The position numbers were made by a program, and so were the translations under genes. From Flavobacterium tagetis (GTDB lineage Bacteria; Bacteroidota; Bacteroidia; Flavobacteriales; Flavobacteriaceae), in the NCBI RefSeq assembly GCF_016735615.1, contig NZ_JAERSF010000001.1:1426001-1490000 (forward strand): DNA of 64,000 nt, read 5' to 3'. The first letter of the stretch is position 1. Each line of letters opens with the position of its first letter. Shown piece after piece: positions 38,231-41,399 of this stretch. Below the pieces are notes generated by a model, which ran no database searches, had not been told where the DNA came from, and saw nothing but the letters and a program-made list of their open reading frames with translations.

Positions 38231-39172
38231 TTAAACTTCAGTTTCATTTCCCCAATTGGACAATTCTTCTTCGGTCCACAATTTAGGAAAAAAGATGCGT
38301 CTTTGGTATTTTGGGTGCATATATTTTTGCCAGTCGCTTCCTCCGGTTGCTTCACCATTGCCTTTTCCGCTTTCCAAAATATATTTTCTAGCAGTATTAA
38401 GGTGTTGCATTACCCAAGTAATATTTACAGTTTTGTCGTAATGGCGCATCGCTGCAATCAGTTCTGTATTTTGTTGATCTTCAACTGGTAATTGGATGAA
38501 TTTTTGCCAAAGGTTTTTTGTTTTGAAAGAAGCCATTTGTCTTAAAAACTGCTCTTTATATTTCTTTTCAAATTCATTCAATAAATATGATTTTTCGCCA
38601 GTGTGATAATCTTTTCCAGCGGCTTGCCAATAAAGGTGTTCAAAGCAGGTTTCCAAATCGGTGTTTTCGTCAAAATTTGCTTTGTATCTGCGATCTGTTA
38701 AATTGATAACATCAGTCGAAGCAAATTCGATCATTCTATATTGAGCGCTTTGGAACCCGCTTGCTGGAGTAAGAGTATTTCTGAATTTCATATATTGATC
38801 TACTTCCATTCCGTTTTCCATAATGCTAAACGAATTGGTAAGCATGTCAAAGTATCTTGTGATTCTTGATAATCTTTCACTGAAAAAATCAACCTGAATG
38901 TTTTCTGTTTCTGCAATCTGATCAATCTCCCACAAAATCATTTTAAAGATTAATTCATTTACCTGATGATACATGATAAAAACCATTTCGTCAGGAAGTG
39001 TAGTGCGCTGAATTTGTAAATTTAATAGTGCATCAGTTTGAATGTAATCCCAATAAGTAATTGGTTTGGCCCAAAGCAATCCTTCTAACTGAACGTCAGT
39101 TTTTTGATTTATGGCTTGAAATTTTAGGTCAATTTCTTTTAAAATTGCTTCAGAATGATCTGTAGGGTTCAT
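38231..39172 (-). CDS. tryptophan 2,3-dioxygenase family haem enzyme
   Basis: A 313-residue all-helical dioxygenase. Family signatures are YWDYIQTDALLNLQ, DEMVFIMYHQVNELIFKMILWEI and the C-terminal haem/substrate segment MQHLNTARKYILESGKGNGEATGGSDW. It opens the indole ring of tryptophan to N-formylkynurenine in the cytosol. Its ATG overlaps the stop of the DUF3108 gene by one base (TAATG), so translation is coupled. Nearby hppD and hmgA handle tyrosine catabolism, making a small aromatic-amino-acid block; no kynurenine pathway genes are visible. Confidence 0.88.
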   Translation of the reverse strand: MNPTDHSEAILKEIDLKFQAINQKTDVQLEGLLWAKPITYWDYIQTDALLNLQIQRTTLPDEMVFIMYHQVNELIFKMILWEIDQIAETENIQVDFFSERLSRITRYFDMLTNSFSIMENGMEVDQYMKFRNTLTPASGFQSAQYRMIEFASTDVINLTDRRYKANFDENTDLETCFEHLYWQAAGKDYHTGEKSYLLNEFEKKYKEQFLRQMASFKTKNLWQKFIQLPVEDQQNTELIAAMRHYDKTVNITWVMQHLNTARKYILESGKGNGEATGGSDWQKYMHPKYQRRIFFPKLWTEEELSNWGNETEV

Positions 39173-39942
39173 TATTTTTTTGCTTTTAGTGGACTTTTTA
39201 ATCCTTTATATTCATCGAGATCGGCTTTAAGAGATCCTACGGCCAAATCTGCTTTAATTCTAATTGGAACTTTGTTTACATCGTCTGTTATCCAGAGCGT
39301 TAAACTTTCTTTTTCTTTAAACACTCTGCCTGTCTGTACTAATGGTTTGAAGACCATCGTAGAAACCGTTCCAAATTTAGTCGTAATATCTTGACGACCT
39401 ACATATTTTAACTTAAATTTTGTGATTTCATCATCAAAAAACATATCGATTGTAATGGCCTCGCCAGATTTAAGTTTGTCAATGTTTGGATGGTTTCTCA
39501 AATAGTAAAAAGCAGATACAATATCTTGTACATCTTCGGTTACGATAATTGTTTTTTCTGTTTTACGCTTGTAATCTTTTACTAAAACTCTATTTTCGTT
39601 TTGATTAAAAAAACCTTCTTGATTTTTGGTATAACCACCTTCGTCAATTTTTCTAACATAACGATATGGTTTTCCTGTTTCTTTGTCAAAATAACTTTCG
39701 TATAAATCTTCTACTTTAAAGAAAAATTTGGACATTCCGGTTGTGTAACCTTTTCCAACAGAGTGAAATACCTTTTTATTGTTGACTGTAGCATCTTTAA
39801 CTTCAAGAGTAGCATATCCGGCATTTACAATTCCGTAATGGATTCTAAATTTAAAGTATTCTCCAGTGTCGAAAGCGTCTTCTTTTTGAGGCGTGAACGA
39901 GAGTATTGTTAGTGCTAATATAATGAGGATGAGATTTTTCAT
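39172..39942 (-). CDS. DUF3108 exported protein
   Basis: ATG 39942 (MKNLILIILALTILSFTPQ) begins a signal peptide and is preferred over an upstream start; 256 residues. The mature part is a DUF3108 beta-rich domain with FKFRIHYGIVNAGYATLEV and later FFDDEITKFKLKYVGRQDITTKFG. Homologues are exported and of unknown function; some act in outer-membrane or polysaccharide contexts. Its stop overlaps the start of the tryptophan dioxygenase gene, an odd partnership repeated only by conservation. Confidence 0.85.
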   Translation of the reverse strand: MKNLILIILALTILSFTPQKEDAFDTGEYFKFRIHYGIVNAGYATLEVKDATVNNKKVFHSVGKGYTTGMSKFFFKVEDLYESYFDKETGKPYRYVRKIDEGGYTKNQEGFFNQNENRVLVKDYKRKTEKTIIVTEDVQDIVSAFYYLRNHPNIDKLKSGEAITIDMFFDDEITKFKLKYVGRQDITTKFGTVSTMVFKPLVQTGRVFKEKESLTLWITDDVNKVPIRIKADLAVGSLKADLDEYKGLKSPLKAKK

Positions 39943-40009
39943 AGTATAATCTTTACGTTTTATATAAAGGTAGACAAATGCAAATTCTATTCCAAATGTA
40001 CCAAAACAA

Positions 40010-40115
40010 AAAAACTCAGTCAAAGATGACTGAGTTTTTATGCTATTAACTAACCAAAAAACTATAAATTATGAAATTTATATCAATTCGGAAGGAAACC
40101 ACCCCTTCCTGATTT
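40010..40115 (-). ncRNA. candidate small RNA with promoter and terminator
   Basis: On the minus strand, a -7 box TATCTTTG (40122-40129) followed by CAC predicts a start near 40115. The transcript would carry stem CCTTCC/GGAAGG pairs (40104-40109 with 40090-40095), stem TATAAATT/AATTTATA (40063-40070 with 40075-40082) and a perfect 12-bp terminator stem AAAAACTCAGTC / GACTGAGTTTTT (40010-40021 and 40028-40039). That makes about 105 nt with three stacked hairpins and no reading frame of note on that strand. It occupies most of the gap between the DUF3108 and hppD genes. Rfam Flavo-1 and other Bacteroidota RNA motifs are candidate matches, not verified. Confidence 0.55.
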
Positions 40116-40238
40116 GCGGTGCAAAGATAGATAGAAAGTTCAAAAATAAAATAGCAAAAGTCAAGTTTAACATAACATTTGCAAAAAAAGCATCGTTTTT
40201 TGGTGAATTATGCGGTTTTCTATATGAAAATTAACATT

Positions 40239-41399
40239 TTATAGCGTTCCTCTCAATTCTTGCTCTCTTTCAATAGACTCAAAAAGGGCTTTAAAGTTAC
40301 CTGCGCCGAACCCTTTTGCACCCATTCTTTGAATAATTTCGAAGAAAAGCGTCGGTCTGTCTTGAACTGGCTTTGTAAAAATCTGTAATAAGTAACCATC
40401 TTCATCAGCATCCACCATGATTGCCAATTTTTCGATTTCATTTAAATCTTCTTTCATCATATCCATATGAACTCCTAATCTTTCAGGAATTGCTTGGTAA
40501 TAAGTATGAGGAGGAGCAGATAAAAATTCAACGCCACGTGCTCTAAGTTGCGATACAGTTTTGATAATATCATCTGTAGCAATGGCAATATGCTGAATTC
40601 CTGGCCCACCGTAGAAATCTAAATATTCTTCAATTTGTGATTTTTTCTTTCCTTCAGCTGGTTCGTTGATTGGGAATTTAATTCTTCCGTTTCCGTTAGA
40701 CATTACTTTACTCATCAAGGCAGAATATTCTGTTGTGATTTGTTTGTCATCAAAAGATAGGAAATTAACAAATCCCATAACTTCTTCGTAGAATTTTACC
40801 CAAGTATTCATTTCATTCCAGCCCACATTTCCAACCATGTGATCGATGTATTTTAATCCCGTTGGCTCTGGATTGTAATCCGATTTCCATTCTTTATAAC
40901 CTGGCAAGAAAACGCCATTATAATTTTTTCTTTCTACGAAAATATGAACCGTTTCTCCGTAAGTGTAAATTCCAGAACGAACTACCTGACCAAATTCATC
41001 TTCTTCAACTGTTGGTTCCATGAAAGAGCGAGCGCCACGTTTCATAGTTTCTTCATACGATTTTGTAGCATCTTCAACCCAAAGTGCTGCAACTTTTACT
41101 CCGTCTCCGTGTTTTTTCAAATGTTCGTTAATTGGAGAATCTGCTGTTAAAGGCGTTGTCAAAACAATTCTGATTTTATCTTGCTTCAAAACATAAGAAG
41201 CCCTATCTCTTACTCCAGTTTCTAATCCGGCATAAGCTAATGACTGATATCCGAATGCAGATTTATAATAATGTGCAGCTTGTTTAGCATTCCCCACATA
41301 AAATTCTACATAATCTGTTCCTAATAATGGAAGGAAATCTTGTGCTCCTTCAAATATTTTCTCTAATCCGTATTCTACTGATTTTACTTCTTTTGACAT
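40239..41399 (-). CDS. hppD: 4-hydroxyphenylpyruvate dioxygenase
   Basis: A 386-residue non-haem Fe dioxygenase converting 4-hydroxyphenylpyruvate to homogentisate in tyrosine degradation. Two VOC modules are visible: FLPLLGTDYVEFYVGNAKQAAHYY at the N-terminus and KYIDHMVGNVGWNEM for the catalytic half. Iron ligands are in IDHMVGNV, IQHIAIATDD and FFEIIQRMGAKGFGAGNF. It is upstream of the candidate small RNA and 170 nt downstream of hmgA, whose product consumes homogentisate. The gap contains an inverted repeat. Confidence 0.97.
   Translation of the reverse strand: MSKEVKSVEYGLEKIFEGAQDFLPLLGTDYVEFYVGNAKQAAHYYKSAFGYQSLAYAGLETGVRDRASYVLKQDKIRIVLTTPLTADSPINEHLKKHGDGVKVAALWVEDATKSYEETMKRGARSFMEPTVEEDEFGQVVRSGIYTYGETVHIFVERKNYNGVFLPGYKEWKSDYNPEPTGLKYIDHMVGNVGWNEMNTWVKFYEEVMGFVNFLSFDDKQITTEYSALMSKVMSNGNGRIKFPINEPAEGKKKSQIEEYLDFYGGPGIQHIAIATDDIIKTVSQLRARGVEFLSAPPHTYYQAIPERLGVHMDMMKEDLNEIEKLAIMVDADEDGYLLQIFTKPVQDRPTLFFEIIQRMGAKGFGAGNFKALFESIEREQELRGTL

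Follow-up and report, generated by a model that had tools for sequence, protein, structure and literature searches.

The minus strand between the hppD-like and DUF3108 genes of Flavobacterium tagetis carries what is, on comparative evidence, a stand-alone small-RNA gene of ~110 nt (40121 to 40008, minus strand, in model coordinates; positions are those of the window, i.e., the whole 64,000-nt stretch of DNA that was analyzed). We consider it likely that its product is a free-standing, trans-acting base-pairing RNA of the Flavobacteriaceae, a probable orthologue of Rfp18 of Flavobacterium psychrophilum, that acts at the start regions of messages. The gene was delineated by nucleotide search, covariation, and a covariance model. 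An invariant promoter box, compensatory changes, a terminator, and the lack of a conserved reading frame bear out the preliminary description of the locus as a complete non-coding transcription unit.

Architecture of the Small-RNA Gene

Upstream of the gene lies the hppD-like gene (40239 to 41399, minus strand; Glyoxalase/HPPD domains in Pfam) and downstream of it DUF3108 (39172 to 39942, minus strand; PF11306, E 2e-59), beyond which are a tryptophan 2,3-dioxygenase gene and then an M23 peptidase gene (both from Pfam). The predicted housekeeping promoter is marked by the −7 box TATCTTTG (TAnnTTTG; 40129 to 40122, minus strand), recognized by its invariant TA and TTTG. With this box at −12 to −5, the placement given for the sigma-A TAnnTTTG box in the accessible text of PMC9723704, the +1 would fall near 40117. 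Then follow, all on the minus strand, stem-loop 1 (GGAAGGGG UGGU UUCCUUCC; 40109 to 40090), evident from the fold and its covarying stem; stem-loop 2 ((U)AUAAAUU UCAU AAUUUAU(A); 40082 to 40063), evident from the fold and the alignments; an unpaired pairing segment GGTTAGTTAA (GGTTGGTTAA in the other seed type; 40055 to 40046), recognized by its invariance in the genus; and an intrinsic terminator with a 13-bp stem (40039 to 40010), drawn from the fold and covariation, whose T tract (seven T's) runs to 40008.

The predicted fold energy of the RNA was −36.7 kcal/mol, compared with −19.5 ± 3.0 kcal/mol for shuffled sequences (z = −5.7; 0 of 200 shuffles). Base pairing was assessed in two alignments, i.e., A1, comprising 47 sequences that were aligned without structure and used to build the covariance model, and A2, comprising 93 model matches that were fitted to the model and are hence biased toward it. 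In A1, 95.7% of cells paired, a value that fell to about 57% when the partners were slid by one column, and both sides had changed in 8 of 27 pairs (reached by 0 of 500 shuffles); in A2, both-side changes were found in 26 of 27 pairs (again, 0 of 500 shuffles). For stem-loop 1, the counts were 5 of 6 pairs in A1 and 6 of 6 in A2, and for the terminator, 3 of 13 and 13 of 13, respectively, and we regard these two structures as strongly supported by the alignments. Relatives thus keep the structure through compensatory changes, the opposite of what would speak against a structured RNA.

Stem-loop 2 is nearly invariant within the genus and, in many other genera, looks rebuilt, reading ACUUUAA..UUAAAGU there. 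Its inner pairs were 98–99% formed. Pairing of its main helix amounted to 92.5% in A1; in A2 it was 78.8%, with two of the pairs failing in 60 and 31 rows. Across its loop runs the hexamer UUUCAU, complementary to start contexts that read AUGAAA. Three stacked hairpins and a terminator stem had originally been proposed, and only part of this picture stood: the two stem-loops and the terminator are supported, whereas a third hairpin is not. The minimum-energy fold contains a third, short closing helix, formed by a 5′ CACC with GGUU of the linker, and RNAalifold offered an alternative 4-bp hairpin in the linker. Since the CACC reads CACTC in many relatives and the pairs of the linker hairpin never change on both sides, neither version finds support.

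Comparison with Rfam, including Flavo-1, had also been proposed, and across the window no family reached its gathering score; the interval 39900 to 40260 had 15 weak matches, led by PyrR, whose 26 bits fall short of its threshold of 54. Flavo-1, likewise a structured RNA motif of the Flavobacteriaceae, was absent from these 15 and differs from the present RNA in giving no match to it.

Conservation Within the Genus and Range in the Family

By nucleotide search, a match (E ≤ 0.01) was found in 196 of 199 genus genomes, and in all 167 genus genomes with at least 90% completeness and at most 5% contamination; three of the 196 (G086, G104, and G122) matched only weakly. The F. tagetis genome itself holds one covariance-model match, and this, together with the near-universal presence in the genus, argues that the match is not due to chance. 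For comparison within the genus, 70 loci were used, of which 30 were the best hits and 40 were chosen from the hit list to widen the sampling; they represent 57 distinct sequences. Across them, the −7 box is invariant in its TA and TTTG, TTTATAGTTTTTTGGTTRGTTAATAGCATAAAAACTCAGTCA is almost unchanged, and the pairing segment is invariant save for one R position, with drift seen in stem-loop 1 and the flanks. In 43 of 53 copies from other genera, those fitting the core pattern, the segment reads GGTTGGTTA or AGTTGGTTA.

The covariance model built from A1 detected the RNA in 91 of 249 family genomes, corresponding to 87 of 235 genera (E ≤ 0.01, a count that includes near-threshold matches, of which those close to E 0.01 may be chance). 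When the scan was widened to the order, 25 of 196 genomes matched, all within the Flavobacteriaceae. Searches over more than 40 genomes ran with stricter filters, at which weak matches are lost.

All 93 model matches of the wider set were kept in the promoter, neighbor, and A2 counts, including 13 without the strict core pattern. These 13 are L060, L066, and L071 (genus members with small changes), L191 (one base), L182, three copies in L175, L178 and L179 (both doubtful), and L183, L186, and L188, seemingly different RNAs that have GTTGGTTAATAGC and a terminator in common. In the last three (L183, 2582 to 2685; L186, 2401 to 2506; L188, 2524 to 2633), a different 5′ part precedes this common portion, and they may represent further small RNAs that carry this seed.

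Tandem copies occur in L175 (three; 2206 to 2679), L176 (two; 2426 to 2827), and L177 (two; 2491 to 2925), and two DUF805b RNA motifs (Rfam RF02914) lie near those of L176, at 1594 to 1628 and 2286 to 2318. One genome (G221) contains three scattered paralogues, L172, L173, and L174, each with an upstream GTTAAA and none adjoining hppD or DUF3108 within the 5 kb read.

Complements of the Pairing Segment Ahead of Start Codons

Candidate target sites in F. tagetis were sought in the first 1.6 of 5.1 Mb of its genome (31%), which contains 1,292 starts. The own-type complement, TAACTAAC or AACTAACC, lies within 53 nt before 10 of these starts, and 9 of the 10 have a signal-peptide-like N terminus by a crude rule, versus 400 of the 1,292 overall (Fisher p 1.8e-4, uncorrected, with four seed word sets tried and five control sets not significant). 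According to Pfam, these nine predicted exported proteins comprise three outer-membrane receptors, SusE, an alpha-amylase, an S41 peptidase, two proteins with a beta-lactamase fold, and a DUF5018 protein. Within a starch-type locus (L317; C1, about 711779 to 720206), the seed complement precedes three genes, i.e., those for a SusC-type receptor, whose site is ~34 nt ahead of the start, for SusE, and for a T9SS-tailed alpha-amylase. The spacing between site and start varies.

AACTAACC gave 7 hits, a number attained in 11 of 280 permutations; the word occurs 8 times within the 240 nt upstream, and 7 of these occurrences fall in the last 40. For TAACTAAC alone there were 8 hits, attained in 39 of 420 permutations. 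A bias in position is also shown by the reversed word CAATCAAT, which has 18 of its 22 upstream occurrences within the last 80 nt. In other genomes, a TonB plug domain was found in 9 of 16 scanned start-proximal frames, these 16 having been chosen partly by eye from 26 such frames in 60 loci.

On a larger scale, TTAACCAACC-N0-30-ATG occurred 440 times in 71 genomes versus 632 for the reversed control (above the control in 20 single genomes), TTAACTAACC-N0-30-ATG 303 versus 735 times in the same number of genomes (above it in 4 single genomes), and TAACYAAC-N1-28-ATG was rarer than its reversed control in two genomes (118 versus 240 and 71 versus 124). Since these patterns fall below their reversed controls, most such hits are chance. 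We also compared the C/T preference of the sites between seed types, which was 246:186 for the GGUUAGUU type and 159:81 for the GGUUGGUU type (p 0.02, after an approximate subtraction of about one self-hit per genome and with related genomes not independent), the reversed controls being 327:398 and 305:337. The letter in the seed and the letter in the site are thus weakly linked, in the predicted direction. When seed-type octamers were compared with a Markov model, the best excess also included TTATGAAA (77 versus 41), which may only reflect the many starts that read ATGAAA. Together, these searches only suggest a target set.

A different reading of the UUAACYAACC boxes is that they are DNA operators or initiation words and that the RNA acts in another way, e.g., by holding a protein. 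The lack of a genome-wide excess of seed sites and the weak correspondence of seed letter and site letter both fit this idea, and A/C-rich control words can crowd the upstream region too. However, AACTAACC stands in the last 40 nt, where its reverse complement is absent (7 versus 0), the sites match the invariant unpaired segment of the RNA exactly, and they are linked with exported proteins. We therefore judge the operator reading unlikely, albeit worth keeping in mind, and note that it is compatible with the identity of the RNA as Rfp18. Pairing of the small RNA with these sites is the reading followed below.

A Probable Orthologue of Rfp18

In the accessible part of the published account, Rfp18 of F. 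psychrophilum is a genus-conserved, strongly folded small RNA, predicted to pair through one region, its third stem-loop, with all of its predicted targets, among them metalloprotease messages and the 107-bp fpp2-fpp1 gap (PMC9723704). Proteases and an adhesin are discussed around it there, a homologue is expressed in F. columnare, and deletion of Rfp18 lowers Fpp1 and THC0290_0300 mRNA in stationary phase (PMC9723704). As far as it is available, this deletion result points to Rfp18 being needed for full expression of its protease targets.

F. psychrophilum DSM 3660 has one good match to our model (G624:C45:38600-38709, E 1.4e-13). A second match (E 0.078) adjoins another gene and was dropped, and a scan of the 32-residue translation at this place gave nothing. 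The same genome carries a metalloprotease pair (in L204) 107 nt apart from end to start (106 bases between), with an M43 domain in the upstream protein and an M12B reprolysin domain plus a T9SS tail in the downstream one (Pfam); from this spacing and these domains, we take the pair as fpp2-fpp1. The gap holds TTAACCAACC, the exact 10-nt complement of GGTTGGTTAA in the RNA, 16 nt ahead of the downstream start codon, and 16 of 2,000 dinucleotide-shuffled gaps match the RNA as well anywhere in the gap. A second protease frame of F. psychrophilum, with an M43 domain, has AACCAACC 16 nt before its AUG; this word at this distance was found in 2 of 5 HEXXH frames in the four loci of the species examined. 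The duplex energy of the whole RNA with the protease gap is ordinary (235 of 1,334 windows were as low). The metalloprotease pair is only ~4 kb from the small-RNA gene (L221, 11413 to 17767).

Since the seed complement is situated in the protease gap where Rfp18 reportedly pairs, the RNA described here is most likely the orthologue of Rfp18. The two have in common conservation across the genus, a strong structure, a single pairing region, and the 107-bp fpp2-fpp1 gap. They differ in that the published pairing region is in the third stem-loop, whereas the segment here is best taken as unpaired, and in that conservation in the genus is what the accessible text describes, with the family-wide range, candidate susC-type targets, paralogues, and GTTAAA element added by the present analysis.

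Several conserved Rfp RNAs exist, among which Rfp11, 13, and 15 are likewise structured and conserved in other species (PMC9723704), and our RNA might be real but one of these, a reading to which the published placement of the Rfp18 pairing in a third stem-loop also lends some weight. Against this, the seed complement is found both in the 107-bp fpp2-fpp1 gap and before the second protease frame, and we consider it quite unlikely that the RNA is other than Rfp18.

An Upstream Element and Independence From DUF3108

Upstream of the −7 box, at about −54 to −49, is a GTTAAA element (40171 to 40166, minus strand) that stands out by its invariance in the 70 genus loci. In the wider set, a loose box pattern was found in 86 copies, and 83 of these have GTTAAA 35–38 bp upstream of the box (40 of 40 genus copies and 43 of 46 others; 7 of the 93 copies lack a recognizable box), where 0.085 occurrences per 120 nt would be expected by chance. 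GTTAAA is repeated at 9–12 bp spacing in many other genera, and these repeats presumably resemble the sites of LytTR-type regulators. The element is probably an activator site, bound by a putative activator. As a general promoter word, it was rejected, GTTAAA-N35-37-TANNTTTG having 22 hits in the F. tagetis genome versus 25 for the reversed control. A role as enhancer of the sigma54-like promoter of DUF3108 (see below) is less likely, too: seven core copies without DUF3108 keep GTTAAA, which assigns the element to the promoter of the small RNA.

Of the 70 genus loci, 64 have hppD upstream and 69 have DUF3108 downstream; within the flanks covered for the wider set, the corresponding numbers are 67 and 78 of 93. 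DUF3108 is lacking beside 15 copies, seven of which show the strict core (L094, L131, L172–L174, and two in tandem in L176). The remaining eight are three tandem copies with a changed core (L175) together with L178, L179, L183, L186, and L188, these last five being doubtful or different RNAs. Just past the terminator, and outside the small RNA, is the sequence TGGAATAGAATTTGC (39994 to 39980, minus strand), which we read as a sigma54-like site of the downstream gene on the basis of what we take to be the sigma54 −24/−12 motif. Of the 78 copies with DUF3108, 65 have the pattern TGG[AC]A-N6-TTG[CT] behind the terminator, as opposed to none of the 15 that lack this gene; the upstream control gave 1 of 93. 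A −24/−12 class (SM4) is reported in PMC9723704. As the site accompanies DUF3108 in this manner, the message of this gene very probably has a start of its own, and the small RNA is separate from it.

The constancy with which DUF3108 follows directly downstream on the same strand would also suit a 5′ leader of this gene, i.e., an attenuator or riboswitch whose terminator is read through under some signal. Yet DUF3108 is missing beside some copies, including scattered or tandem ones and seven with the strict core, it has the promoter-like site of its own, and the RNA is most conserved in an unpaired stretch, no alternative helix having found support; hence, a leader is very unlikely. The existence of copies away from hppD and DUF3108 also agrees with the initial description of a self-contained transcription unit. 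With its own promoter, its own terminator, and no fixed neighbor gene, the RNA has by sequence the hallmarks of a trans-acting small RNA.

A small protein encoded on the plus strand can be dismissed almost entirely: an ATG frame of 13 codons (40071 to 40112) and a 64-aa frame (40040 to 40234) are present there, but in relatives the frame opposite the loop of stem-loop 2 varies from 1 to 105 codons (none was found in 7 of 93), its sequence is not kept, and changes follow the RNA pairs. The start codon of the 13-codon frame is the reverse complement of the CAU in stem-loop 2, and the frame is best seen as a shadow of this anti-start loop rather than a gene.

Proposed Mode of Action

We propose that the small RNA is transcribed from its own TAnnTTTG promoter, with a putative activator at GTTAAA, and ends at the intrinsic terminator. 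Its unpaired GGUURGUUAA, between the two stem-loops and the terminator, would pair with UUAACYAACC-like sites ~3–34 nt before the start codons of messages for exported proteins, and at the start codon itself, UUUCAU of stem-loop 2 may bind AUGAAA. By occupying the initiation region, the RNA would alter translation and thereby the level of the message, and whether output is lowered or raised may vary by target.

By analogy, this mode of action is most likely much like that of the FopS family and GibS of Bacteroides, with another seed (PMC11697453, PMC7366714). In the accessible parts of these reports, both bind near start codons through a single-stranded segment that is conserved, and FopS, which is multicopy, targets susC-type messages (PMC11697453, PMC7366714). 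GibS has UUUUUCAU, likewise an anti-start-codon run, near its 5′ end (Rfam consensus). The FopS and GibS seeds are near the 5′ end, whereas the seed described here is in the linker before the terminator, behind two stem-loops, and F. tagetis has one copy of the RNA as opposed to the multiple copies of FopS. The FopS and GibS models of Rfam (RF04319 and RF04182) gave no gathering match in the window or in seven loci of relatives, and their weak matches are on the plus strand, opposite the small RNA. The weak GibS match (39932 to 40044, plus strand) begins antisense to the DUF3108 start codon, and it suggests that the 5′ seed of GibS resembles a generic anti-start sequence. A broader proposal is that the RNA is a family-wide counterpart of FopS, in which the GGUURGUUAA seed and the anti-start loop set the output of polysaccharide uptake and secreted proteases, with one activator acting on GTTAAA repeats. 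We put this forward tentatively, as a possibility somewhat short of even.

The RNA itself is probably not new, as the likely counterpart of Rfp18. The additions made here are its family range, the invariant seed, the upstream element, the paralogues, and the sites before genes for exported proteins, and in the literature we searched, we found no account of the family range, the seed, or the susC-type sites. Members of the Flavobacteriaceae play a major part in breaking down polysaccharide and protein in soil and water. To our knowledge, they are without the usual RNA chaperone Hfq, and their use of small RNAs is therefore poorly known. The RNA could enter Rfam as a family of its own. With a core nearly frozen in the genus and recognizable family-wide, a definable seed, and a promoter site, it offers a direct handle on regulation in these bacteria, whose genes for secreted enzymes and polysaccharide uptake may be tuned post-transcriptionally by it.
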